A DNA stretch of 64,000 nucleotides, taken from positions 62,001 to 126,000 of the forward strand of contig JAIMBD010000003.1 of assembly GCA_023511625.1 (NCBI GenBank). Direction: 5' to 3'. The notes under the pieces are model-generated. The model was not told the DNA's origin. It worked only from the letters and a program-made list of their open reading frames with translations, and searched no databases. This DNA is from Bacillota bacterium (GTDB lineage Bacteria; Bacillota; Sulfobacillia; Sulfobacillales; Sulfobacillaceae). The translations under genes were made by a program, and so were the position numbers. Shown piece by piece: positions 46,986-64,000 of this stretch (position 1 is its first letter; every line of letters starts with the position of its first letter).

Positions 46986-48086
46986 CTAGTCGGGGTCGGG
47001 TGCAGTCGTAGGGGGGTCCACTCCTGGCTCGGCGGTTTTTGCCACCACCCAGGCAGCTAGCGCATCGTAAACCGCTTCGACCGGGTGCCCGACCGGCACG
47101 AGACCCCCCCATCCCCGGTCGTGAACCGTCACCCACGGAATCCGCACCAAGACTGGCACCCCCAGGGCCTCGGCCACTGGGTCGGCGCCGCCTTGGCCCA
47201 GAAGATGGAGGGCGTGGCCGCAGTGGGGGCAGGAGACCGCCGCGAGGTTCTCCACCACTCCGAGCAGGCGGCGCTTGAGGGCCAAGGCCATCTGGCCGGC
47301 GCGCTCGGCTACCGCTGCGGCGGCGGGATCGGGGGTGGTGACCACCAGCGCGGCGGCTTGCGGAAAGTGGTGATGCACGTCGAGGGCCACGTCGCCGGTA
47401 CCAGGGGGAAGGTCGAGGACCATGTAGTCTGGTCGGTTCCACTCCGTCTCTTCCATCATTTGGCGCAGGGCCTTGCCCAAGAGAGGGCCGCGCCACATGA
47501 CTGGGGTGTGGGCGGGGACAAAGTAGCGCATCGACATCACGGCCACCCCTCGCGCGACAGGGGGGAGGAGGCGGCGGCCGCGTCGGCGCGGCAGCTCGGT
47601 GATGCCCATCAGATCCGGGGCGCTGAACCCGTAAAGGTCGCAGTCCAACAGGGCTACGTTCCATCCTCCCCGGGCCAGCGCGGCGGCCAGGTTGACGGAT
47701 ACCGTGGTCTTCCCGACTCCGCCCTTGCCGCTCAAGACCGCCAGGAGCACGACTCCGGGAGGGGTCTGGATGTGCTGCAGTGCGCGGGCCCTGGGTCCTG
47801 CGGCCTTCGGTGCCTCAGGCGAGCGGGGGCGGATCTCGACAGTGGACACCTCGGGCCAGGTTGTCCGCACGAAGTCGGCTAAGGCTTTCCGGTCGGTTTC
47901 GGATAAGGGCACGCCACGCCAGCGGTCGTCGACCTCGATCGTCACCGCGGTCGAACCGTCGCGGGCTGCACGCGCTATCGCCACGTTGCGAATGTGTCCG
48001 GCGGGCAGGGGTTTGATGCCGGAGGGGGCAGTAAAGCGGGCAAGGCCGGCCAAAAGCGTCGAACGCGTCAGCGGCATGTCACGCAT
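46986..48086 (-). CDS. Mrp/ApbC/NBP35 family ATP-binding iron-sulfur carrier
   Basis: A 366-residue P-loop ATPase of the Mrp family, which carries or inserts Fe-S clusters. The deviant Walker A is in LAVLSGKGGVGKTTVSVNLA (about residue 105), with LLDCDLYGFSAPDLMG, MWRGPLLGKALRQMMEE and YMVLDLPPGTGDVALDVHH following; the cluster-binding CxxC is SCPHCGHALHLLG. The N-terminal 95 residues take the place of the usual MIP18/DUF59 domain but are divergent. Start ATG 48086 (GGAGG close by) or ATG 48077 is possible. It overlaps the upstream membrane protein gene and belongs to its operon, so a role in maturing metalloproteins of this redox region is plausible. Confidence 0.85.
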   Translation of the reverse strand: MRDMPLTRSTLLAGLARFTAPSGIKPLPAGHIRNVAIARAARDGSTAVTIEVDDRWRGVPLSETDRKALADFVRTTWPEVSTVEIRPRSPEAPKAAGPRARALQHIQTPPGVVLLAVLSGKGGVGKTTVSVNLAAALARGGWNVALLDCDLYGFSAPDLMGITELPRRRGRRLLPPVARGVAVMSMRYFVPAHTPVMWRGPLLGKALRQMMEETEWNRPDYMVLDLPPGTGDVALDVHHHFPQAAALVVTTPDPAAAAVAERAGQMALALKRRLLGVVENLAAVSCPHCGHALHLLGQGGADPVAEALGVPVLVRIPWVTVHDRGWGGLVPVGHPVEAVYDALAAWVVAKTAEPGVDPPTTAPDPD

Positions 48087-49491
48087 CCCCCTCCTTCGCG
48101 GCCCGGTCCGGAAGGCGCGGACGGGGTTCCCGGTCTCCCGGGCTAACGGCTGGCGCGCCGGCGTTCGGCCAGGCCACCGACCCTGGCCTGCGGGCGGTGG
48201 GTAACGACGGCGACGCATAGCGCGCGCGCCACAAAGCGCGCGCGATGTCGAGGGTGCAGAGCCATCCTACGCCCATGGCGATGCGAAAAGCCGCCTCGGA
48301 TCCTAGTGCCAAACCGGCGGCGGCGGCCAGGATGGCGGCGTGATAGACCATAAACGCCCACCGGTCGCGGGATTCGACCACCAAGTCTTGGACGCGGGGC
48401 GTGCGCGTGCGGCCCATGGCGTGGCCCCACCGCTCAATCCAGGTCAAAAACGGCACGATCTTGTAGAGCTGCGACCATCCCAGTCCGCCGAGCCATCCGT
48501 AGAGCCCATAAAAGCCCAGGGCAAGGCTCGCGCGGGGGTCAGATGGGGCCAGGTGGACCACCAGGGCCGCGACCAGCAGGGCAGCCAGGGCCCGCACGGC
48601 CCCCCGTCCTGCCCGGGCGTTGAGTTCGAGATGCCGGCGCTTGCGCTGGCGAAAGAGGCGCTCCATCTCCACCACGAACGCGGCCAGCCCGAGCCACCCG
48701 AAGGCCCAACCGACGTCTGCCATCGCGGCCCCTAGTTGGTCGCGCGGCCAAAAGGCGCCGGCCCAGACCAAGGCCACGCCGGCGGTAGTCAGCCCGTAAC
48801 TCGCTTTCGCCCACCCGCTCCGGTGCTCAGGAGCCAAAGCGAACATGGCCAAGAGCTTGTAGGATACGCCCATGGCGGTCAAGGTCAACCACCCGACGAG
48901 TCCTCCGGCGATATGGGCGGGAAGCCCGCGAGCCAAGACGTAGTCGGCGAAGGTGCCGACCGTCGGGGAACTTGCCGTCAAGGCGAGGGCAAAGGTCAGA
49001 CCGAGGCCCACCGTCAGCCACAAAAACCCCATCCCGGTGGCAATAAACCAGACCGAGAGCGTCCACGGGCGCGAGCGGGCAAGGCTTCCCCCGAGGTTGA
49101 AGCCAGCCAAAAGCACGGCCGCCATCACGCACGCTCCGCCCCAGGGCAACAGTGCGGCCAGTGGCGATCCGACGCCGCCGGCCAGGCCGATAAACCCTCC
49201 CACCAAACCAGCCAGTCCGACTCCTAAAAAGCCCAAGGTCACGCCGGCCAGGCGCTGGCTGGTCAACTCGGTGACGGTCAGCACCGGCACGAACTGCTGC
49301 AGGGCCCCGAGGATCAGGATGGTGAGCCACCCCACTGTGGTCAGGTGCAGCGCCGCCAGCGACCAGCCACTCTGCACCGTCGCGACCGGATCGGCCAATC
49401 CCGTCGCCAGGAGGATCTCGGCCAAGAGCACCGAGCCCACTGCTACGGCAAAGTATGCCATGCTCCACCGCGAAACCTTCACCCCATGCAC
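48079..49491 (-). CDS. Haem-copper-oxidase-like multi-pass membrane protein
   Basis: A 470-residue protein with about 11-12 hydrophobic helices. It resembles NnrS- or cytochrome-oxidase-I-like relatives: helix LHLTTVGWLTILILGALQQF has a conserved His and later helices contain GLPAHIAGGLVGWLTLTAMG, RDRWAFMVYHAAILAAAAG and the loop YKIVPFLTWIERWGHAMGR. The full CuB His set of true oxidases is not apparent, so catalysis of oxygen reduction should not be assumed. GTG 49491 has GGGGAGGGG 8 nt upstream. Preceded by a Crp/Fnr-like palindrome; a role in NO or haem metabolism is my inference. Confidence 0.6.
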   Translation of the reverse strand: MHGVKVSRWSMAYFAVAVGSVLLAEILLATGLADPVATVQSGWSLAALHLTTVGWLTILILGALQQFVPVLTVTELTSQRLAGVTLGFLGVGLAGLVGGFIGLAGGVGSPLAALLPWGGACVMAAVLLAGFNLGGSLARSRPWTLSVWFIATGMGFLWLTVGLGLTFALALTASSPTVGTFADYVLARGLPAHIAGGLVGWLTLTAMGVSYKLLAMFALAPEHRSGWAKASYGLTTAGVALVWAGAFWPRDQLGAAMADVGWAFGWLGLAAFVVEMERLFRQRKRRHLELNARAGRGAVRALAALLVAALVVHLAPSDPRASLALGFYGLYGWLGGLGWSQLYKIVPFLTWIERWGHAMGRTRTPRVQDLVVESRDRWAFMVYHAAILAAAAGLALGSEAAFRIAMGVGWLCTLDIARALWRARYASPSLPTARRPGSVAWPNAGAPAVSPGDREPRPRLPDRAAKEGDA

Positions 49492-49567: not shown

Positions 49568-49609
49568 ATCGTAGGCGGCTGAAGGCAGTCCCACCGTGAT
49601 CCCGGTCAC
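49568..49609 (-). promoter_or_regulatory. Crp/Fnr-like operator and promoter of the haem-copper-like gene
   Basis: Palindrome GTGATCCCGGTCAC (49596-49609). On the - strand the hexamer TACGAT (49573-49568, four of six matches to TATAAT) begins 29.5 nt from the dyad centre, as expected for an activator centred at -41.5. The start codon is at 49491. Confidence 0.6.
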
Positions 49610-49988: not shown

Positions 49989-50411
49989 ATGACCCACGAA
50001 AACCCGGCGTTGGGCGATCGGATCTGGCATCGATTGGTCCACGACAGCTTCCTCAACGCGCTGGCCAACCTCAACGGAATTGCGGCGAGTGTCTCTGCCG
50101 CCGATGTGTCCACCTTGGTGGCCGTCGCCGAGGCCGCCATCGACCTTTGGCGCCGCGACGGGGCGCCCCACGCCCGGGCCGAGGAGGAGCAATGGTTTCC
50201 CGCCTTGGCCGGAGCAGGCGGAGCCGAAGACCGCACGGCCTTAAGTGCTGAACATGCCGCTATCGCGGCCTTGATCGCCGACCTTGACCAAGCGGTGCAG
50301 CGCCAGGATGGACCGAACCTGGCTGGACTCCTGGCGCGTCTTTTGCATGCCGTGGAAGACCACTTCCAACACGAGGACGCGGTGTTGGCGGCCGGGTTCC
50401 AGGGTCCGTGA
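49989..50411 (+). CDS. Hemerythrin HHE-domain protein
   Basis: A 140-residue four-helix protein. The iron ligands are suggested by HDSFLN near the N-terminus, HARAEEEQWFPAL, SAEHAAIAALI and HAVEDHFQHEDAVL: the H...HxxxE/EH...HxxxxED pattern of HHE hemerythrins. Such proteins bind a di-iron centre for oxygen or NO sensing or protection. ATG 49989 follows AAGGAGGAGG. Its neighbours, the haem-copper-like protein, cytochrome oxidase and DUF2249 genes, fit a role with oxygen or nitrogen oxides. Confidence 0.85.
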   Translation: MTHENPALGDRIWHRLVHDSFLNALANLNGIAASVSAADVSTLVAVAEAAIDLWRRDGAPHARAEEEQWFPALAGAGGAEDRTALSAEHAAIAALIADLDQAVQRQDGPNLAGLLARLLHAVEDHFQHEDAVLAAGFQGP

Positions 50412-50524: not shown

Positions 50525-52396
50525 TCAGAGCGGTACCGTGTGGGTTGGGGCTTCTTGCACCGTCACCATCGTGCCTGGATCCCGGATGAACATGGCCCGA
50601 TGGAGCGCGAACCCGAGGGCAGCCAGGCCCGCTGCGATCAGAGCCGGCGTGGCGAAAACCAAGCTGTAGCCGACCAGCACAATGGCACCGGCTAAGAGCA
50701 GAGGGACCAGGGTAGGTTGGGGCAGGTGGACGTGGCGCGGCGGGGTCTCGGCGGGCACCATACGGCCATGGCCCCACCGTTTTTCTAGCCAGAAGGGGTC
50801 GCGCCCGCGCACTTCGGGGATAGCGGCGAAGTTGTAGACCGGTGGGGGCGAGGAGGTAGACCACTCGAGGGTTCGCCCGTCCCAGGGGTCGTCGCCCGCC
50901 CACGCGCCGTGGTTCCACGACCAGACCAGATTGGCGACCAAGACCAGGACGCCGGCCGCCAGGATGAAGACGCCGGCTGTGGATACCGCATTCCAGAAGC
51001 TCCACCCCAGGTGGGGGGCGTAGGTGTAGATCCGGCGCGGCATCCCTTCGAGGCCGAGAAAGTGCTGCGGGAAGAAGGTAACGTTGAAGCCGATGAAAGT
51101 CAGCCAGAAGTTCCACCGTCCCCAGCGCTCGTTGAGCAGGCGCCCGGTGAACTTGGGATACCAGTAGTAGAAGCCGGCGAACAGCCCGAACAGCGTGCCG
51201 CCGATGAGCACGTAGTGAAAATGGGCCACCACAAAGTAGGAGTTGTTGTACTGCAAGTCGGCTGGAGCCATGGCCAGCATCACGCCGCTCATGCCCCCGA
51301 CGACGAAGCAGATCAAAAAGCCGAACACCCACAACATGGCGGTGGTCATGCGCACCTGACCGCCCCACATGGTGGCCAGCCAGTTGAAGATCTTGATCCC
51401 GGTGGGCACGGCGATGGTCATGGTGGTCAAGGCAAAGATAGAGTTGATCCAGGGGCCGAGGCCCAGGTCGAACATGTGGTGGACCCACACCATGAAGGAC
51501 AGAAAGCAGATGGCCAACAGGGCCCCGACCATGCTCGTATAGCCGAAGAGCGGCTTTCGGGAGAAGACCGGAACCACTTCAGAGAGGATGCCGAAGATGG
51601 GGAGAATGACGATGTAGACCTCGGGATGTCCGAACACCCAAAAGAGGTTGATCCACAAAAGCGGGTTGCCGCCGGCGCCGGGGACGAAGAATTGGGCGCC
51701 GAAGAGCCGTTCGAAAGTCTGCAAGAACAGGTCGACCGACAGCGGAGGCAGGGCCACCAAGATCAGCACCATGGTGGCGAAATTCGCCCACACAAAGAGG
51801 GGAAGGCGCATCCAGGTCATGCCCGGCGCGCGGAGGTTGACGATGGTGACCACGAAGTTGATGGCTGTCAGGATGGTGCCGAGCCCGGAAATCTGCAGGG
51901 CGACATCGTAGAATTGGATGCCGATCCCAGGGTCGTATGGCGGGCTGGAGATCGGCACGTAGTTGAACCATCCGGCGTTGGGGGCACCGAAAAACCAGCT
52001 GGTGTAAAAGAGTATCCCGGCGCCCAAAAACAGCCAGACGCTGAGGGCGTTCAGCCGCGGGAAGGCCACGTCCCGGGCTCCGATCTGCATGGGGATGACC
52101 AGATTGGCGAGACCGAAGATGAGGGGCATGGCAGCGAAGAAGATCATGGTCACGCCATGCATGGTAAAGAGCTGGTTGAACAGCGCCGCGCTGACCACGT
52201 GGTTGTCGGGGCGCGCGAGCTGAAGGCGCATGACGAAGGCTTCGACGCCGCCCAAGATGAAGAATCCGAGACCGCCTGCCAGATAGATCAAGCCGATGCG
52301 CTTGTGGTCGACCACTGTAAGCCAGGCGAAAAGCCGCTGCCACCTGGTATGGGGCGGGCTGTCCGAACGCGGGGGCGTTTCCCTGACCGAGATCAC
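50525..52396 (-). CDS. ctaD: Cytochrome c oxidase subunit I (haem-copper oxidase, A family)
   Basis: A 623-residue subunit I with about 13-14 membrane helices. All metal ligands are visible: His in LFTMHGVTMIFF (low-spin haem), the CuB His and cross-linked Tyr in VFGHPEVYIVILP, the His pair in MVWVHHMFDLG, and two His in VVAHFHYVLIGG. It reduces oxygen to water and pumps protons in the cytoplasmic membrane. GTG 52396 with GAGGAGGG is preferred; the frame is open to 52681. No subunit II or III gene lies within the window near it, which is unusual for aa3 oxidases. A Crp/Fnr-like palindrome lies 92 bp upstream. Confidence 0.93.
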   Translation of the reverse strand: MISVRETPPRSDSPPHTRWQRLFAWLTVVDHKRIGLIYLAGGLGFFILGGVEAFVMRLQLARPDNHVVSAALFNQLFTMHGVTMIFFAAMPLIFGLANLVIPMQIGARDVAFPRLNALSVWLFLGAGILFYTSWFFGAPNAGWFNYVPISSPPYDPGIGIQFYDVALQISGLGTILTAINFVVTIVNLRAPGMTWMRLPLFVWANFATMVLILVALPPLSVDLFLQTFERLFGAQFFVPGAGGNPLLWINLFWVFGHPEVYIVILPIFGILSEVVPVFSRKPLFGYTSMVGALLAICFLSFMVWVHHMFDLGLGPWINSIFALTTMTIAVPTGIKIFNWLATMWGGQVRMTTAMLWVFGFLICFVVGGMSGVMLAMAPADLQYNNSYFVVAHFHYVLIGGTLFGLFAGFYYWYPKFTGRLLNERWGRWNFWLTFIGFNVTFFPQHFLGLEGMPRRIYTYAPHLGWSFWNAVSTAGVFILAAGVLVLVANLVWSWNHGAWAGDDPWDGRTLEWSTSSPPPVYNFAAIPEVRGRDPFWLEKRWGHGRMVPAETPPRHVHLPQPTLVPLLLAGAIVLVGYSLVFATPALIAAGLAALGFALHRAMFIRDPGTMVTVQEAPTHTVPL

Positions 52397-52459: not shown

Positions 52460-52501
52460 AAGGTACCGGGACGCCCGCGGCCACACCGTGATCCCGATCA
52501 C
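52460..52501 (-). promoter_or_regulatory. Crp/Fnr-like operator and promoter of ctaD
   Basis: Palindrome GTGATCCCGATCAC (52488-52501). The - strand hexamer TACCTT (52465-52460, three of six matches) begins 29.5 nt from the dyad centre. The start codon is at 52396. Confidence 0.55.
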
Positions 52502-52753: not shown

Positions 52754-53176
52754 TCAGGAACTCCCGCGGTCATCCCCGCCTCGTTCGGGAGGTTCACTGC
52801 GATGGTCTTCGCTTCTTTCCGGGTCGGCATCCGCTGGTGCCGGCTTTAGGAGCGTGTGGCGATGCGGGTGGGGCACCAAGACCACCTGCAAGATCGACGG
52901 TTCCAGTGCGACGACCGAATGCGCCTCGTAGGGGTCGAGGGCTACTGCCTGACCGGGCTTCAGCGTGGTTCCCTCCCCGTCTCCTACCTCAAGGCGCACA
53001 CGGCCTTGCAGGGGCTGGATCCAGGCGTGGCTCGAGGTCTGATGTTCCCGAAGGCTTTGGCCGGATTGAAACCCGAACCAGATCACCAACCCCTCGGGCG
53101 ACTCGAAGGCCCGGTAGGTGGTGGCGTGGTCGGGATGAAAGGCAACGAGCTCGTGGGCGTTACACCATCGCGCCAT
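52754..53176 (-). CDS. Cupin-domain protein
   Basis: A 140-residue single-domain cupin. Motif 1 is represented by REHQTSSHAWIQPLQGRVRL and motif 2 by LDPYEAHSVVALEP, keeping two His and a Glu or Gln able to hold a metal. It also has the paired PHPHRH segment near the C-terminus and an acidic, charged tail. Function unknown; small cupins near hemerythrin and DUF2249 genes are plausible redox or NO-linked proteins. ATG 53176 has GGAGG 7 nt upstream; ATG 53182 is too close to it. A palindromic operator lies 84 bp upstream. Confidence 0.75.
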   Translation of the reverse strand: MARWCNAHELVAFHPDHATTYRAFESPEGLVIWFGFQSGQSLREHQTSSHAWIQPLQGRVRLEVGDGEGTTLKPGQAVALDPYEAHSVVALEPSILQVVLVPHPHRHTLLKPAPADADPERSEDHRSEPPERGGDDRGSS

Positions 53177-53231
53177 CCTCATTCCTCCGTTCTTGTGGGT
53201 TCCAAGGCGGCTGGTCGCGCACCTCGACTTG

Positions 53232-53273
53232 AGTAAAGCCGCGACCGTCCCCCACGACCGTGATCGGGCTCAC
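53232..53273 (-). promoter_or_regulatory. Crp/Fnr-like operator and promoter of the cupin gene
   Basis: Near-palindrome GTGATCGGGCTCAC (53260-53273). The - strand hexamer TTTACT (53237-53232, four of six matches) begins 29.5 nt from the dyad centre. The start codon is at 53176. Confidence 0.58.
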
Positions 53274-53292: not shown

Positions 53293-53306
53293 GTGATCCC
53301 GGTCAC
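53293..53306 (+). promoter_or_regulatory. Crp/Fnr-like operator upstream of the DUF2249 operon
   Basis: Palindrome GTGATCCCGGTCAC, identical to the copy at 49596, 81 bp before the GTG start of the first DUF2249 gene and 20 bp from the divergent cupin operator. No -10 hexamer stands at the 29.5-nt position; TATCGG at 53323 is nearer. Confidence 0.5.
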
Positions 53307-53387: not shown

Positions 53388-53633
53388 GTGACGGTTGCAT
53401 CCACCGACGCCATTATCATCAGCGCGCCCCTCATTGCCCCCCGGTTTCGCCACGAGACCATTTTTGGCGTGCTCAACGCCTTGCCTGAGGGGTACAGCGC
53501 GCTTTTGCTCAACGACCACGACCCCAAACCGCTGCTCTATCAATTGGAGGCCGAAAAACCCGGCACCTTTCGCTACGAGTACGTCGAACAGGGGCCGGAG
53601 CGATTTGCGGTCCGCTTTACGCGGACGGCCTAA
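53388..53633 (+). CDS. DUF2249-domain protein (first of operon)
   Basis: An 81-residue protein that is essentially one DUF2249 domain, with the diagnostic LLLNDHDPKPLLYQLEAEKPG and a terminal strand FAVRFTR. DUF2249 is a small alpha/beta TusA-like domain that often occurs near hemerythrins and genes for nitrogen-oxide metabolism; its reaction is not known. GTG 53388 follows GAGAGG by 8 nt. It begins a three-gene operon with four DUF2249 units, read from the operator at 53293. Confidence 0.8.
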   Translation: MTVASTDAIIISAPLIAPRFRHETIFGVLNALPEGYSALLLNDHDPKPLLYQLEAEKPGTFRYEYVEQGPERFAVRFTRTA

Positions 53634-53707
53634 GACCGACTGTGGGGTGCCGGCAGCGCGCCCTGCGGCTGCTCGGCGCCCCTGGGCGAGGGAAGGAGCG
53701 AGGACCG

Positions 53708-53992
53708 ATGGCTGATAGGGGGCCACAGTCGCCCCGCTTGCCAGAGGGGCTCAACAAGGAGCTCGACGTGCGGCCCCTTCTGCAGGCCGGGATCGAGCCG
53801 TTTGAAGAGATCATGCGATTTGTCGATCAACTTGGCCCGGGGGAAGGCTTTCGGCTGTGGGCGACCTTTCGGCCGGACCCCTTGCTGGCGGTAATGGCCC
53901 GGCGCGGGTTTCGCGCCGAACCTTGGGCATTGCCCGACGGCTCCTGGGCGGTGGATTTCCTGCCCGCCGAGGACGGCGCAGCCGGGAGGTGA
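53708..53992 (+). CDS. DUF2249-domain protein (second of operon)
   Basis: A 94-residue single DUF2249 domain: ELDVRPLLQAGIEPFEEIM, then LGPGEGFRLWATFRPDPLLAVMARRGF, here cut to GEGFRLWATFRPDPLLAVM, and GSWAVDFLPAE. It keeps the LDVRPL start typical of the family but has FRPDPL where the first protein has DHDPKPL. ATG 53708. It lies 74 bp after the first DUF2249 gene and 6 bp before the third. Confidence 0.8.
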   Translation: MADRGPQSPRLPEGLNKELDVRPLLQAGIEPFEEIMRFVDQLGPGEGFRLWATFRPDPLLAVMARRGFRAEPWALPDGSWAVDFLPAEDGAAGR

Positions 53993-53998
53993 TCCGGG

Positions 53999-54577
53999 AT
54001 GGAGCCGAAGGTGGTGGAGGTCAAGGGCATCCTGCGACAGGGGCTTTCCCTGTTTGGGACCATGATGCGCACCGTGGAGTCGCTCGCTCCTGGCCAGGCC
54101 TTGGTGGTCAAGAGCACGTTCCACCCCGCCCCCTTGATCGCCCACATGCGCCGGCGGGGATATCGCGTGGAACAGCGCCAAGAGGGCCGAACCCTCATCA
54201 CCACCTTTGTTCCGGAGGCCAAAGACGGACCGGACGCCGCAGGGGACCACGCGCCTTTTCCTGCGGCGGCCTTGCCCGTCGAAGGGCCGGAACATCGTCT
54301 AGACAACCGGGGGCTGGTGCCGCCCGAACCGATGCAGCGGACCTTGGCGTTGTTGGACGAGGTGCCGCCGGGTCACGTGGTGGTCATCCACAACGATCGG
54401 GTGCCGGTGTTTTTGTTGGCCGAGCTCGACCGGCTCGGCTATCCTTACGAAATCCAAGCCCAGCCAGACGAATCGGCCGTGGTGCGAATTTTAAAGCCGC
54501 CCGAGGATAGGGCTGGCGAAGCGGTGCCATGCCTTAAGCCATCAGGCCGCGACGTCCGAGAGCAGCAAGAGGGGTGA
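53999..54577 (+). CDS. Tandem DUF2249-domain protein (third of operon)
   Basis: A 192-residue protein with two DUF2249 units. The first (3-75) has ILRQGLSLFGTMMRTVESL, GQALVVKSTFHPAPLIAHM and GRTLITTFVP; the second (about 98-165) has LDNRGLVPPEPMQRTLALL, GHVVVIHNDRVPVFLLAEL and SAVVRILKP. Both match the fold of the preceding genes, so the operon encodes four related domains. ATG 53999 with GGGAGGTGATCCGG. The low-complexity C-terminal tail ends at 54577. A role in sulfur or nitrogen-oxide handling is conjecture. Confidence 0.78.
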   Translation: MEPKVVEVKGILRQGLSLFGTMMRTVESLAPGQALVVKSTFHPAPLIAHMRRRGYRVEQRQEGRTLITTFVPEAKDGPDAAGDHAPFPAAALPVEGPEHRLDNRGLVPPEPMQRTLALLDEVPPGHVVVIHNDRVPVFLLAELDRLGYPYEIQAQPDESAVVRILKPPEDRAGEAVPCLKPSGRDVREQQEG

Positions 54578-55145
54578 AAGGGCCAGGAGGGCGCGACAAC
54601 GTCGGGCCGACGGCCGGCGCTCTTCCCCCTGCAAGGAGGGGTGAGGCTGCCGCTGGCCTTAAAAACCCCCTCCGTTAAGACGGTGGGCGCTCGGTTGCCA
54701 CGTTTGCCGTCCATGGCGGCGTGTTTCGGCATCCCGACCGGCGCGTGGTGCTCCTTGGGGCCGATGGCAGCGACGATCCTGCCGTCCGTCAGGCCTTGGG
54801 GGAGCTTTTGGCGGGATTGGTTGAAACTCGCCTTCGGAGGGGGCCCTTCCGCCCCATGGGCTCTTGGTGCCGGCCGAGGTGTGGGCGCGGGCAAAGCGGG
54901 CCGAGACGGGTGCCGTAGGGCCAAGGCCGAGGCGGTCATGGACCGGCTGCCTGCGGTACGAACGCCGTTCGGGGCGGTCTAGGACCTGCTTCCCGGTCAA
55001 CGGGCACGGCGGTTGCGATATGCCGGAGCGCGGGCGGTCGGGGAGCGTTAAGCGAGCGCGTTGACGTTCTCCCCACGGCTAAGACGCTATGCATGACCCA
55101 TCACTGCATAATCCCATGACTGCGGCGTTTGTCCACCATGGCCGT
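54578..55145. other. Region with gene remains only
   Basis: About 570 bp downstream of the DUF2249 operon. A short + strand frame at 54679-54918 begins after a stop and reads like protein at first (RRVVLLGADGSDDPAVRQA, then LGELLAGLVETRLRRG), but loses sense and stops; a continuation seems to exist in another frame near 54864. I see a probable gene fragment, not an intact gene. GGAGGGG and CCCCTCC around 54634-54672 form an inverted repeat without a T tract. Confidence 0.4.
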
Positions 55146-56454
55146 TTGGCGAAAACTAGCAGACGATGAACACGAGAAAAACCGGAGACCACTCCGCTGA
55201 AGGATGGGGATCTCCGGCCGGTCTCGTTGTACTCGAACCGATGCCCCTGGGTGTCCAAACGCTTCCCGGTGCGAATCTGCAGGCAGAAGCAGATCTTTGG
55301 AACTAGCCCAAGGCTCCTCTGGCGCTTCTCCGTATCGTGGACGAGGCCCCCAAGGTCGATCGGCGGTCTTGGGATGACCGCTGAAAAGAGGAGTATGCGC
55401 GTTTTCTCTCGCTTCGGGCCGAGGCAAGGGAGGTCGAAGTCCGTAGAGGCATGGCAGGAAAGGCGGTCTGACCCGGGCAATCGATTGCGAGGGGTATCGC
55501 GCCCAATCGAGGATAGACATTCCAGGAGAAGGCAGCGGACGCGATGCTACGCCTGTAGGCAGTGCAAATACAGCTCGACGCGCGCGCCATGGAAGCCGAC
55601 GACGCACCGACAGAGTGGCGACAGGCCCGAGACGTTTCGACATGGAAACAGGCGGTTGACCGCACCATTCGGGAGTATGACAACCTCCTCCGGCGTTTGA
55701 AGGACGTAGAGGCAGCTTGCCCCATCGGCTTGGAAGAAATTCGTACAGCAACGCCAAACCCTGAGAGCAACTCAAAGAACTCGAACCCCGGCCAGCCGAA
55801 CTCGAGAAGGTGCACCGGCAGGCCGATGATAGCCTCGCGCAGTTGAAAGAACTGCGTGAGGGAAAAAATGCCATCCTCCAGGAGGACGGCCACCCTAGAA
55901 CCGCTGCGCCGGTGGCATACCGCCGACCCGGTCGACGGACTTGGGTCGCATGTCGACCTGGGCAACAGTTTGAAAAGGCCTGGGGGATGAGGCCGGTCAC
56001 TACCTCCGGCGCAGCGATGGACGGCGAGAGCCATACCGGCTTTACCGCCTGGATAAAGTCGAAGTTACTGAGGAAGCCGAGGGGTTCGCCGGCATGCCAT
56101 CTGGCGTACGGGCGCGTCGCGGTTCACACGCCCCTAGCTCTGGTTATACGCCTTCCGGATGATAGGACGCGGCAACGGTTGACCGGATACAGGTCAACGC
56201 CTCCGAAAGGAAACCGAAGGCCGATGCGCCGGCTCTGGTGGACCCGACGGCCACCTCCACGGACTGCCAGGCCTGGGTCCGAGGACTGCACCAACAGTCC
56301 CCGACCACGCCGCACGAGGTTCCGCCCGTTGTCTTGGCGCAGGCAGTGGCCCTGAAGCGGGCAGTGTCCGCCCGAGCGCCGAGAAAGACCTCTACCCAGG
56401 GGGCCTCCCTTTCCCTTGGCTGCCCATGGGTCCAATCGCCGCCGGTGTTGACCC
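55146..56454 (+). mobile_element. Remnant of an ISL3-like element: left end plus decayed sequence
   Basis: TTGGCGAAAACTAGCAGAC at 55146-55164 agrees at 16 of 19 bases with the left inverted repeat of the ISL3 element at 57073, and about 70 bp further in both copies share GATCTC, CCGGTCT and TTGTACT spacing. After that the two sequences diverge. No transposase can be read; short frames (for example 55562-55846, with WRQARDVSTWKQAVDRTIRE) look like worn coding DNA of unknown origin. No matching right end is found before 57 kb. Base composition here is visibly less GC-rich than the core. Confidence 0.45.
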
Positions 56455-57018
56455 CTACTTCCCGAGAGCCTGTCCCTGCGCGAGGAGCCCGGTGAGCCAG
56501 GAAGGCCGGGAGAGCCCGGGCGCGACGCTGGCTGCCGCGATTGCGGCCAACGTCAGACGCACGGCCCGCACCCGCGCATCCCTGGTGGTCCTCACCCACA
56601 CCGTATCGGTCGCGGGCACCACGCGGACAATTTCGGCCGCTCCGCTGGGCGGCCCGGGCACGGGGGTGACGATGGGGCCGAGCCAGGTCTGACAGGCGAC
56701 CGGTTCCCAACTCCGGTCAATGGTCAGCACGACGCCCTGCATGGGGTGGGATCGGAGGGAGCCGGCGACGACGTCAACCTCCGTCTGGCTACCGCCTATC
56801 CCCACTATGCCGTGCCAGACATTGGTGAGCCGATACGCCGCGCGAAGGGCAGCATACCGGGGCAGCGACGGGGTCGACGGGGTGATCGTGGGAGCGATCG
56901 GGGGCGGGCGTTGACCGCTGGAAAGGCAGGGGAAGGGACGGCGGGCCGTGCCGTCGTGGCCACAGGCCGTAGTCAGCAACAGGAGACTTATCCCGCAGGC
57001 CAAAATTGTCGACCGCAT
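56455..57018 (-). CDS. Putative lipoprotein of unknown function
   Basis: A 187-residue protein with a lipoprotein signal: MRSTILACGISLLLLTTAC, lipobox LTTAC at residues 15-19, so Cys19 would be lipid-modified. The rest is Pro/Thr/Val-rich, with WHGIVGIGGSQTEVDVVAGS, MQGVVLTIDRSWEPVACQTW and VVPATDTVWVRTTRDARVRA, suggesting a beta-rich extracytoplasmic domain. The family is not recognised. No strong Shine-Dalgarno precedes ATG 57018. It lies between two ISL3 remnants and could be cargo of a former mobile region. Confidence 0.55.
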   Translation of the reverse strand: MRSTILACGISLLLLTTACGHDGTARRPFPCLSSGQRPPPIAPTITPSTPSLPRYAALRAAYRLTNVWHGIVGIGGSQTEVDVVAGSLRSHPMQGVVLTIDRSWEPVACQTWLGPIVTPVPGPPSGAAEIVRVVPATDTVWVRTTRDARVRAVRLTLAAIAAASVAPGLSRPSWLTGLLAQGQALGK

Positions 57019-57072
57019 CTGTCGTCCCTACCTGCTCATCCCGGTGAAAGCGGCTCTTGTTCATAGTTGGGG

Positions 57073-58147
57073 CTTGGCGAAATCTGGGAGACGCTAGAAA
57101 TTAAGGACATGAGGTCACTCTGCCCCAAGATGACGATCTCGTGTCCGGTCTTATTTGTACTGGAAATTTAACCGCGAACAGACTCCCCGGCAAGTGCTCC
57201 AAGTTACGGGAGATCAGGCGCCCGTGGCAATTTGGGCGGCCACCACTGCACCGGCAGCGGTTTTGCCCGACGTGTGGGCAAGCCAGTGCGCGAGTGAAAG
57301 CCACTGCTGGTGGTCGCCCGGGAATTTGCTGTGGCGGCGCTGGCCGGTGCGGCGGTTTGTTGCACCAATTCGGCCAGTGCGCAAGGGATTTTTGGTGAAC
57401 GCCTGTCCAGCGTGGGGCCCTATCCACGCTGGACCGACGTGGCGCGCACGACCATGGCCCGCGGGATGTTGATCGCGTCGGCCGCGGAAGTCGCCCGGCG
57501 CTTGCGGGCGGAAGGACTGGCCATTAGCCGCCAGACGCGCCATCGGTGGCTTCAGGCGCTGCCCCTGCCGGATTGACCACCGCCGTGGGCCTCGACGAAT
57601 GGGCGCGCTGCAAGGGCCGCACCCAGGCCACCGTTCTGGTGGATCACGAACGCGGCGCCATCGGGGGGATTTCTGCCGGATGCGCGCGGGCAGACAGGGG
57701 CCGCCGGGTTGCGGGAGCATCCCCCCATCGCGAGCGGGACCCGGGACTGCGACCGCGCCTTCACCCGGGCCGTGGCGGACGGCGCGCCCAAGCCCAGCCA
57801 GGGGCCGATCGCTGGCACCGGCTACAAAATTTTGACAAGATGTTGGCACGGTTCTTTCAACGCCATCGCGAGACCCCGGCCGCGTCCTCTCCGGATCCGG
57901 CGCTCTCTACCGAATCCGCAACCGAGAGCGCGCCGGAGACAACGGTCCGCCCGACAGGGCCGAGGCGGCGAAGCCCGCGCGGCCGGAAGCCACCCGGAAA
58001 CAGCCATGGGGCAGGCCATGCACGAGCGCTGACCCCAGGGGAACCGGTCGCGGCCATCGCGGCCCTCCACCTGGACCGTCATACGGTCCAGCGCGAAGCC
58101 GCGTGGGAAGCGGGGCACCAAATCAGCGGTTTCCCCGATTTCGCCGT
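57073..58147 (+). mobile_element. Degenerate ISL3-family insertion sequence with frameshifted transposase
   Basis: Terminal inverted repeats TTGGCGAAATCTGGGAGAC (57073-57091) and the reverse complement of GTTTCCCCGATTTCGCCGT (58129-58147) agree at 15 of 19 bases. Between them a transposase reads in at least three frames: the zinc-binding start FCPTCGQASARV near 57265, YPRWTDVARTTMARG and GLAISRQTRHRWLQALPLP (57420-57575), VGLDEWARCKGRTQATVLVD (57590 on), LREHPPIASGTRDCDRAFTR (57712 on), and DRWHRLQNFDKMLARFFQRH (57810 on). These are ISL3/IS204-type transposase blocks, DDE domain included. About 1,075 bp against the usual 1.3-1.5 kb, so internal deletion and frameshifts; no target duplication remains. 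Inactive. Confidence 0.78.
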
Positions 58148-58401
58148 CAGAAATGCCCTAGTTTCACCGCGATCTTGACGGATCACGCAGCCTCCTAGGA
58201 CGATGGCCTCTGTACTTCCGCAGCCTCTGGTGGCTCTACTGGAGAGTACGGCGGGGGGCGTGGTCTCCCCATCAGACCACTCCCCGGCACGCCCCGCGGC
58301 GCTGCCCCCTGCCTGCCTCCCCGCCGTTGGGATGCGGGCGTCCGGGTTCACCTTCCGTGTCTAGTTCTTTCTTCACAGACCGTTATGGGGAATGCCCAGA
58401 C

Positions 58402-61026: not shown

Positions 61027-61040
61027 GTGATCGCCGTCAC
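61027..61040 (-). promoter_or_regulatory. Crp/Fnr-like operator of the Rieske operon
   Basis: Palindrome GTGATCGCCGTCAC, 76 bp before the GTG start at 60951. The nearest -10-like - strand hexamer, CACCAT at 61003-60998, begins 30.5 nt from the dyad centre and is weak. Confidence 0.5.
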
Positions 61041-61607: not shown

Positions 61608-62354
61608 TTATCCCCGGGTCCCACCCGGTTGGCGATGCAAGTCCGAGGCGGCTGCCGTCGCGGCGTCTGGGCGCAATGCCCCGCGCCGACGGTACTGGAT
61701 GGGTGCCCGGCGCGGGTAGGCCACCGGCGCACTCCAGAGGTGCACCAGGCGCGAGAAAGGGGTTACGGCAAAAAGGCCGAACGCCAACAGGAGATGGACT
61801 TGGAAAGGCCACGGGAGTTGGCCAAGCAGGCCGGGGTCGGGCTTGAGGAGAAACAAGCTCCGGAACCACGGGCCGACGGTGTGGCGGTATGGAAAGGGAC
61901 CGGCGGTATGGTTGTACCACAGGGTGATGGCGTCCCCGCTTGTGACTACGAGCCACAGCCACCCAAGAGCCACCCAGTCGGAAAGGCTGGACGTGCGCCG
62001 AAGCCGGGGGTGTATCCCGCGGCGCAAGAGGAGGAGGTCTAACCCTACCCAGGCCACGAAGCCGGCAAGACCGCCGATAAGGTCTGCCCCTTGGTGGTAC
62101 AGGGCCGGAGTGATTCCGACCGCCTGCCACATGCCCACCGGGACCAGAAGGCCGAGCACATGGCCTGCCAGCACTGCCAAGATCCCCCAGTGGAAGAGGG
62201 GGCTGCCCCATTTGAGCCAACGGCTTTCCAGGATTTGGCTCGACCGGGACGTCCAGGAGAGCGGGCGGTAGGCGTAGCGGTACAAACAGCCTACGAGCAA
62301 AACGGCGAGACAGAGGTAGGGGTACACGGCGCCCCAAAAAATGCTGGCCAGCAT
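61608..62354 (-). CDS. narI: Respiratory nitrate reductase gamma subunit
   Basis: A 248-residue cytochrome b membrane subunit with five hydrophobic helices. Haem ligands are expected in FHWGILAVLAGHVLG and in QVHLLLAFGLFAVTPFSRLVH (family pattern). NarI takes electrons from menaquinol and passes them to NarH and NarG. ATG 62354 follows GAGGAGGTGCGCC; the longer frame to 62471 lies inside narJ. Last gene of the nar operon as seen here. Confidence 0.92.
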   Translation of the reverse strand: MLASIFWGAVYPYLCLAVLLVGCLYRYAYRPLSWTSRSSQILESRWLKWGSPLFHWGILAVLAGHVLGLLVPVGMWQAVGITPALYHQGADLIGGLAGFVAWVGLDLLLLRRGIHPRLRRTSSLSDWVALGWLWLVVTSGDAITLWYNHTAGPFPYRHTVGPWFRSLFLLKPDPGLLGQLPWPFQVHLLLAFGLFAVTPFSRLVHLWSAPVAYPRRAPIQYRRRGALRPDAATAAASDLHRQPGGTRG

Positions 62355-62373
62355 GGCGCACCTCCTCGTCCTG

Positions 62374-62940
62374 TCAGAAGAGCAGGGGATAGGGAACAGT
62401 CGCCGAGGGGTCTTGGAACTCGGAGAGGGCTCCGCCCGGCTGGGACACGGACCCAAACGTGCCGGCGGCACAGCCTACCAGCGGCCGGTACGGGTGGCCA
62501 GGGTCCAGGCAATCGACCAGATGGGCCAAGGCCTGCCCGACGAGTCGGGAGAGGACTGAGGGAGGATCGGGGGAGACGGCGAGGAACTCGAGCAACGTGG
62601 GGAGGTGGTCGACCCAGGCCGGATTTTTGACCGCATAGCCTGCAGTCCGAATTGCATCGAGGGCCAAGGCCAGCACTGGACCCGGCGGCAAGTCGGGAGG
62701 AAGATGCGCCGAAAGCTGCAAACTGGTCTTCCGGTCAAGATCGAAGGTAGCCACGTAAAGGCTTTCGAGTTCGACGGCGGCCAGGGGTAGGAGGGCCTCA
62801 AGGGCTCGGGCGGCGTCGGCGTCCCGACCAGCCAGGACAGGCAGCAGGCGGTGCGCGCGCCGGCGCCAGCGGGCATCGGGGTAGTCGAGCAGCGCCGCCA
62901 ACGCCTTGCGAAGCCAACGGGTGTGGACGGCGCGGGTCAT
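62374..62940 (-). CDS. narJ: Nitrate reductase assembly chaperone NarJ
   Basis: A 188-residue helical TorD/NarJ-family chaperone that holds NarG during molybdenum cofactor and Fe-S insertion. Typical segments are RWLRKALAALLDYPD, VELESLYVATFDLDRKTSLQLSAHL (landmarks), and PAWVDHLPTLLEFLA. Start ATG 62940 overlaps the narH stop as ATGA. The frame is open far upstream across narH but that is a shadow. Confidence 0.9.
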   Translation of the reverse strand: MTRAVHTRWLRKALAALLDYPDARWRRRAHRLLPVLAGRDADAARALEALLPLAAVELESLYVATFDLDRKTSLQLSAHLPPDLPPGPVLALALDAIRTAGYAVKNPAWVDHLPTLLEFLAVSPDPPSVLSRLVGQALAHLVDCLDPGHPYRPLVGCAAGTFGSVSQPGGALSEFQDPSATVPYPLLF

Positions 62941-64000
62941 GGCCGCACCTCCCCACCCAAGGCCTCGAGGCCGATGAGCCCTTGCTCGGCGCTTAAGTCC
63001 TGGATGCGGTTGCGGTCGGCGGGCGGAATGACAAACCGCTCCGCGTATTTGGCCACGCCGAGTAGGTGCGCCATGGCTCGGACCGCCTCGGGAGTCAATC
63101 CCGCGCGCTCTACCGCCTGGGCGGCCGAGGGCTCTTCGCCGGGTACGAGTTCTGCCCGCATCCAGGTCCGCATGGCCCAAAGGCGCTCGAGAGCCCGGTG
63201 GACCGGCTTCACGTCGCCGGCAGTGAAGAGGGCCGCGAGGTACTCCAGCGGGATGCGCAGGGCCTCGATGGCCGGGAAGGTGGCCTCGTCGACCGCGCCT
63301 GGCCAGTGGTGCAAGACGGGGCTCAAGGGCGGGATGTACCACACCATGGGCAGCGTCCGGTATTCGGGGTGCAAGGGGAGCGCCACCTGCCAGCGCACGG
63401 CCAGGTCGTACACGGGAGAGCGTTGGGCGGCCAGCAGCCACGCGTCGGAGATCCCGGCCGCTCTGGCCTGGTCGATCACCTGCGGGTCGGTGGGGTCGAG
63501 GAACAGGCCGAGCTGTTGTCCGTACAAGTCTTGGGGATCGGGAGAAGAGGCCGCCTCGAGCACCTGGTCGGCGTCGTAGAGGATGGGGCCGAGATAGCGG
63601 ATGCGACCCACGCAGGTCTCCGAGCAGACCGTGGGCAGGCCCGACTCGATGCGGGGATAGCAGAAGGTGCACTTCTCAGCCTTGTGGGTCTGCCAGTTGA
63701 AGTACACCTTCTTGTAGGGACAGGCGCTGATGCAAAAGCGCCACCCCCGGCAGGCCTCCTGGTCCACCAGCACGATGCCGTCCTCGTCCCGCTTGTATAT
63801 TGCCCCCGAAGGGCAGGCGGCGACACAGGCCGGATTGAGGCAGTGCTCACAGATCCGGGGGAGGTAGAAGAGAAAGGTGTGGTGGTACTCCCAGACGATC
63901 CGCTCGCCCATCTCGCTGAGATTGGGGTCTTGTTGGGCCACCGGCGGACCTCCGGCCAAGTCGTCGTCCCAGTTTGGACCCCAATGCGGCTTGTCGAGGG
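62937..64000 (-). CDS. narH: Respiratory nitrate reductase beta subunit (5' end outside window)
   Basis: At least 354 codons of NarH are in the window; the start lies to the right. Cluster motifs: CEHCLNPACVAACPSGAIY, EACRGWRFCISACPYKKVYFN, in which a Trp replaces one Cys, typical of NarH and giving a 3Fe-4S cluster, and KCTFCYPRIESGLPTVC. Also characteristic are HPEYRTLPMVWYIPPLSPV and ERFVIPP. NarH wires NarG to NarI. narG is expected just beyond the window edge. The presence of nar genes beside ctaD supports facultative nitrate respiration. Confidence 0.94.
   Translation of the reverse strand, partial: LDKPHWGPNWDDDLAGGPPVAQQDPNLSEMGERIVWEYHHTFLFYLPRICEHCLNPACVAACPSGAIYKRDEDGIVLVDQEACRGWRFCISACPYKKVYFNWQTHKAEKCTFCYPRIESGLPTVCSETCVGRIRYLGPILYDADQVLEAASSPDPQDLYGQQLGLFLDPTDPQVIDQARAAGISDAWLLAAQRSPVYDLAVRWQVALPLHPEYRTLPMVWYIPPLSPVLHHWPGAVDEATFPAIEALRIPLEYLAALFTAGDVKPVHRALERLWAMRTWMRAELVPGEEPSAAQAVERAGLTPEAVRAMAHLLGVAKYAERFVIPPADRNRIQDLSAEQGLIGLEALGGEVRP

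Follow-up and report, generated by a model that had tools for sequence, protein, structure and literature searches.

Four DUF2249 subtypes, a two-histidine membrane protein and a candidate Crp/Fnr regulon in a nitrate reductase neighbourhood of a Sulfobacillaceae genome

DUF2249, a domain found widely but with unknown biochemistry, has been tied to denitrification since 2005, when a link between DUF2249/COG4309 and nitric oxide (NO) reductase was proposed (PMC1274295). The DUF2249 proteins DrpA and DrpB of Thermus thermophilus were studied genetically in 2018: deletion of drpAB rendered nar expression independent of nitrate, loss of drpB rendered it constitutive, the effects reached nar and dnr promoter fusions and hence lie in transcription, and the NarG made aerobically by the mutants was inactive (PMC6282519). 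Haloferax mediterranei possesses four DUF2249 proteins, all of them induced in denitrification, and its nar operon encodes a fusion of DUF2249 with a P-loop Fe-S carrier (PMC11218638). Here we describe a window, a 64,000-nucleotide stretch (G000:C14:62001-126000) of a 2.59-Mb Bacillota genome, in which three tandem genes on the plus strand (g1, g2 and g3; 53388-54577) encode one, one and two DUF2249 domains. Given the three reports above, the connection of DUF2249 with denitrification is already known, and the description of this cluster in the initial annotation as a candidate undescribed system was overstated. New, as far as the literature examined shows, are a scheme of four subtypes, a conserved Sulfobacillus regulon with a co-encoded Crp/Fnr regulator, and a quantified tie to a membrane protein of the twelve-transmembrane (12-TM) type.

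We consider it probable that the locus represents, in the Sulfobacillus family, a widespread module accessory to nitrogen-oxide or low-oxygen respiration, in which the DUF2249 proteins would serve as non-catalytic adaptors linking the 12-TM protein to a Crp/Fnr response. The module would comprise DUF2249 proteins (COG4309, DrpA/DrpB family) and a 12-TM protein with two histidines, often accompanied by the Fe-S factors SufT or Mrp. The subtypes, the regulon sites, the partner and the genomic context are each supported by sequence statistics.

Profile searches placed all four domains above the PF10006 cut-off of 29.5 bits, and no further match above it was found elsewhere in the genome. The 81-residue g1 (53388-53633, GTG start) scored 76 bits and the 94-residue g2 (53708-53992) 52.5 bits, while the 192-residue g3 (53999-54577) contained two matching stretches of about 31 and 57 bits, corresponding to domain C (about 54041-54211) and domain D (54299-54493). 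The arrangement of one, one and two domains and the four core motifs quoted for them initially (DHDPKPL, FRPDPL, FHPAPL and NDRVPVF) were borne out. Neither the DUF2249 genes nor the neighbouring cupin gene nor the 12-TM protein has a family in NCBIfam, and neither g1 nor g3 has one in PHROGs.

In a tree of 117 DUF2249 domains each of the four window domains grouped separately with its own positional orthologues, by which they are four old orthologous subtypes: A (g1, RH...NDHDPKPLLYQ), B (g2, ATFRPDPL), C (first half of g3, STFNPRPL) and D (second half of g3, PPEPM...NDRVPVFLL). The division of labour first suggested for the different cores agrees with this picture, since the cores reflect old subtypes. 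Orthologues of g3 in Sulfobacillus are 60-72% identical, the nearest named relatives being S. benefaciens, S. harzensis, S. acidophilus and S. thermotolerans. Further afield, g1 and Thermus DrpA share 55% identity over 65 aa. When Thermus and Shinella sequences were added to the tree, DrpA joined A and the second domain of DrpB joined D, both with low support; g2 was grouped with two first DUF2249 domains, that of DrpB at a support of 0.84 and that of the tandem protein from Shinella at 0.89.

Subtypes B and D form one fused protein in Thermus and Shinella and are separate adjacent genes in a complete order-level relative (G079, locus L065); in Sulfobacillus B is a single gene and C and D are fused. 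That B and D are joined in one lineage and separate in another suggests physical association between them, and a DUF2249 hetero-oligomer is plausible on these grounds. The multiplication of domains, from which a hetero-oligomer had originally been proposed, is common: of the 151 genomes examined in the class, 85 carry DUF2249, often with three to six matches each, and we rejected the idea that four copies are an unusual expansion.

Those 151 genomes also served to identify the partners of DUF2249. The 12-TM family was found in 72 of the 85 genomes with DUF2249 and in 3 of the 66 without it (p 2e-25); counted by genus, the figures were 36/44 and 1/44 (p 2e-15). Where matches for both were listed, the two genes lie within 5 kb of each other in 50 of 68 genomes, and in the remainder they are mostly on different contigs. 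Companions named in the initial annotation fared unevenly. DUF2249 is linked to nar, being present in 30 of 33 narG-bearing genomes against 55 of 118 lacking narG, so that the cluster is far from absent among relatives with nar. The nitrogen-oxide context proposed at first is supported; hemerythrin gave the weakest association measured (69/85 against 32/66), and we rejected it as the main partner. The tightest partner of DUF2249 is the 12-TM protein with two histidines, rather than hemerythrin or nar.

In the window this protein is encoded on the minus strand at 48079-49461, with a start possibly as far up as 49569, and it matches a Shinella protein with 38% identity over 455 aa. Two histidines (H39 and H183 here), and only two, are invariant across 16 family members from three phyla, and the six catalytic histidines of oxidases and NO reductases are not kept among them. 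A crude hydropathy count gave 8-12 segments for the family, and Pfam has no family for it. Weak matches to COX1 were obtained for 3 of 11 members (best E 0.0027), and a relationship of DUF2249 itself to the oxidase superfamily has been noted, as cited in a passage of PMC11218638. Beside another 12-TM gene of the same genome lies a gene for a 102-aa, sub-threshold DUF2249-like protein (E 0.059; L024:5042-5350, contig C3), with a DUF488 gene nearby (L024:4538-4906). Both of these genes are found again close to g3 at locus L079, and a DUF488 gene also accompanies the DUF2249 cluster in several relatives and in Thermus.

Several of the data weigh against the adaptor reading or narrow it. DUF2249 is retained by 55 of 118 narG-less genomes and hence is not nitrate-specific; in S. 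thermotolerans, too, the cluster is present while the same search showed no narG. With nearly half of the narG-less genomes keeping the domain, we rejected a nitrate-specific role as its sole function. A heme-copper oxidase of any kind is present in 83/85 genomes with DUF2249 against 17/66 without, an association as strong as that of the 12-TM family, so that part of the latter may merely mark respiring organisms; the 12-TM link nevertheless persisted within oxidase-bearing genomes (odds ratio 30, p 5e-8). An alignment of the 12-TM profile with that of oxidase subunit I returned an hhalign probability of 0.2, from shallow alignments. Finally, the regulatory sites described below are rarer for A-type genes elsewhere in the class (6/33).

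Given that nearly all genomes with DUF2249 have an oxidase, the domains might be assembly or electron-delivery accessories of terminal oxidases or NO reductases, an explanation we regard as improbable. The 12-TM protein lies closer to DUF2249 and is tied to it more consistently, no redox-active residue is conserved in the domains, and the DUF2249 set is complete here even though no NO reductase could be recognised and the subunit I genes examined are like CoxA: all five COX1 matches in the genome score very high and are similar in length, the one in the window being of CoxA type. That gene (50525-52396, minus strand, likely starting at the GTG at 52396) matches COX1 with E 5.6e-157 and lies above the NCBIfam cut-off for CtaD_CoxA, and its product retains HPEVY and HH, which marks it as an O2 reductase rather than an NO reductase.

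The palindromes around these genes point to common regulation. The two palindromes originally proposed as operators between g1 and the divergent cupin gene are real, and sequence comparison indicates that such sites are conserved upstream of orthologues. They are of Crp/Fnr type, GTGATCGGGCTCAC at 53260-53273 (one mismatch) and GTGATCCCGGTCAC at 53293-53306, 33 bp apart, and follow the consensus GTGAY-N4-RTCAC, that is, GTGA-N6-TCAC. The same core, GTGATCCCGGTCAC, recurs at 49596-49609 upstream of the 12-TM gene; GTGATCCCGATCAC stands at 52488-52501, some 90 bp ahead of the probable oxidase start, and GTGATCGCCGTCAC at 61027-61040 between genes for a Rieske protein and a ferredoxin. A second, weaker palindrome-like match, CTGACCGAGATCAC (52383-52396), overlaps the probable oxidase start itself.

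Across the genome CGTGATCNNNNTCAC (CGTGATC-N4-TCAC) has about 12 sites, against about 0.8 expected by composition and 0 for the reversed control. Sites in the window precede the 12-TM gene, the oxidase gene, the cupin/g1 pair (two sites) and the Rieske/ferredoxin genes; others precede the SLAC1-narGHJI operon and a second 12-TM gene, or lie in the gaps that separate a third 12-TM gene from a hemerythrin gene and cydAB from sufT. Three more, within coding sequence (C14:39592, C14:210095 and C37:90864), were judged to be chance occurrences. Among relatives, 16 of 17 g3 orthologues are preceded by a perfect site no more than 160 bp upstream, that of the 17th starting 165 bp upstream (background 3.1%); of the 25 A-type genes found in the order, 22 have such a site within 350 bp upstream (background 6.8%). 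On the genome counts together with this upstream conservation we rejected a chance origin of the palindromes.

One strong Crp/Fnr protein is encoded in the genome, at C17:3379-4041, a regulator of 220 aa with the helix GTHRETVSR and with no cysteines for an FNR-type [4Fe-4S] cluster. Given the published rule that pairs R180/E181 of the regulator with G3/A6 of the site (PMC1274295), the R-E of this helix predicts binding to GTGA sites. Orthologues of the regulator (50-56% identical) lie in or beside the g3 operon in many relatives, where the order is palindrome, g3, two 12-TM genes, a small gene, g2 and Crp/Fnr. The site statistics support a single candidate Crp/Fnr-type regulon embracing DUF2249, nar, cydAB, the A-type oxidase, the cupin, hemerythrin and three 12-TM genes. 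Between the 12-TM genes and g2 of the Sulfobacillus operon, a conserved 112-aa protein without a Pfam family is encoded (L082:12158-12496 and orthologues).

What the DUF2249 domains themselves might do was approached through their fold. AlphaFold models of moderate confidence (pLDDT 75 for g1, 69 for g3) predicted a beta-alpha-beta-alpha-beta-beta topology, as in TusA. For g3 the best solved match was the SirA-like 3hz7 (template modelling score 0.83 by target length), with TusA 3lvj at 0.80 and YeeD also high; 3hz7 was likewise the top match for g1, more weakly. A sequence search of the PDB with g3, and with its 18-row profile, gave no match. Domain D exceeds the TusA Pfam cut-off as well, and has PPEP(M) at the position of the TusA CPEP. 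One might suppose from this likeness to the TusA/SirA family (PF01206) that the domains are cysteine-less sulfurtransferase relatives still engaged in a TusA-like sulfur relay, but we hold that to be very improbable: none of the four domains has a conserved cysteine, the catalytic CPxP cysteine of TusA included, the conserved features of subtype A are histidine and aspartate (RH, NDHDP), and the genomic context is one of nitrogen-oxide respiration. Together these observations suggest domains that look like TusA and are not sulfurtransferases; because no conserved cysteine is retained a redox enzyme is also unlikely, and the redox system envisaged initially finds little encouragement here.

Comparison with other phyla placed the window in a wider setting. 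On a Thermus plasmid the order is Crp/Fnr, DrpA, DrpB, a small membrane protein, a protoglobin, a 12-TM protein and SufT; on a Shinella plasmid it is norCBQD, hemN, subtype A, a 12-TM protein, a tandem DUF2249 protein (B-D; 37% identical to g3 over 177 aa), SufT, NnrS and nirK. Such shared gene content makes one common gene set of the three loci. SufT also belongs to the cluster of the order-level relative, and in the window the 12-TM gene is directly followed by one for an Mrp/NUBPL-type Fe-S carrier ATPase (46986-48077, minus strand; PF10609, E 1.7e-69).

These Fe-S factors, together with the Haloferax fusion of a P-loop carrier to DUF2249 and the inactive aerobic NarG of the Thermus mutants, favour the main rival to the adaptor reading, namely that DUF2249 proteins maintain or rebuild Fe-S or heme centres damaged by NO, in concert with SufT, Mrp and hemerythrin, and have no part in signalling. 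We think cofactor protection of this kind unlikely, if deserving of serious attention, given that the Thermus effects are transcriptional, that the domains lack a conserved cysteine able to hold a cluster, and that the association with hemerythrin is the weakest of those measured.

Returning to the adaptor reading, we envisage that nitrogen oxides or low oxygen would activate the Crp/Fnr regulator, which lacks Fe-S cysteines, and that the activated regulator would switch on the gene set through the GTGA-N6-TCAC sites. The 12-TM protein may bind heme and meet NO or related ligands at the membrane, while the DUF2249 proteins, A alone and B with C-D, might form a soluble, non-catalytic adaptor complex that would couple the state of the 12-TM protein to respiratory gene expression via the co-encoded regulator. 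This signalling step is proposed by analogy with Thermus, since DrpA and DrpB act in that way genetically. In acidophilic Sulfobacillus, nitrite and ferrous iron can yield NO chemically. DUF2249 persists in narG-less Sulfobacillus, so the signal is more likely to be NO or general nitrogen-oxide stress than nitrate; among the Sulfobacillus species compared previously only one had narGHJI, and an NO-forming nitrite reductase was reported in S. acidophilus (PMC4378227).

A bolder form of the proposal, which we put forward as a doubtful conjecture, would make the 12-TM protein a heme-bearing receptor that detects NO or a related nitrogen oxide at the membrane, and the cysteine-less, TusA-fold DUF2249 proteins (A, B, C-D) a dedicated relay from it to the Crp/Fnr activator. 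If true, the signal would pass through three parts, in contrast to two-component systems and to regulators that sense directly, and the route would be common to Bacillota, Deinococcota and Alphaproteobacteria. The subtypes, the 12-TM tie and the regulator sites in any case turn the "unknown function" of DUF2249 into a few direct experiments.

The remaining neighbours complete the setting. Profile matches confirmed the hemerythrin, oxidase and cupin surroundings first noted: the hemerythrin-domain gene lies at 49989-50411 on the plus strand (PF01814, E 1e-14) and the divergent cupin gene at 52754-53182 on the minus strand (Cupin_2, E 8.5e-6, slightly below the cut-off); in relatives the cupin gene adjoins a 12-TM gene, with a palindrome in front. 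Gene calls place narI, narJ and narH on the minus strand at 61608-63941 (61.6-64 kb), narI being followed downstream by the genes for the Rieske protein and the ferredoxin; narG and the SLAC1 channel gene follow just past the window end, with another palindrome ahead of them. The initial annotation lacked the 12-TM protein, the Mrp ATPase, the identities of the domains and the palindromes at 49596, 52488 and 61027. Just past the window, a 91-aa protein of no known family is encoded between SLAC1 and NarG (L020:5060-5335), and the stretch after g3 (54600-58400) is gene-poor, with short, low-scoring frames only, possibly decayed genes or remnants of a mobile element.

Set against the described systems, the window most closely recalls DrpA/DrpB of Thermus thermophilus, g1 resembling DrpA, and B and D the two DUF2249 domains of DrpB, with a Crp/Fnr gene, a homologous 12-TM protein and SufT alongside. 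DrpB, however, carries an N-terminal DUF1858, and none was found in g2 or g3; in the window B is a separate gene, an extra C domain is present, and the regulator belongs to a set that has its own conserved sites and also occurs without narG. In the COG4309-containing nor-nir clusters of Shinella and Aminobacter plasmids, A, the 12-TM gene, the tandem DUF2249 gene and SufT adjoin norCBQD, NnrS and nirK, whereas here there is no recognised NO reductase and the genes are divided among different transcription units that surround a bacillotal regulator. Haloferax mediterranei matches the window in having four DUF2249 proteins, but there the genes are single and dispersed, next to nirK/nor and nar/nos, one of them being the carrier fusion, and with a regulatory motif different from that of the window.
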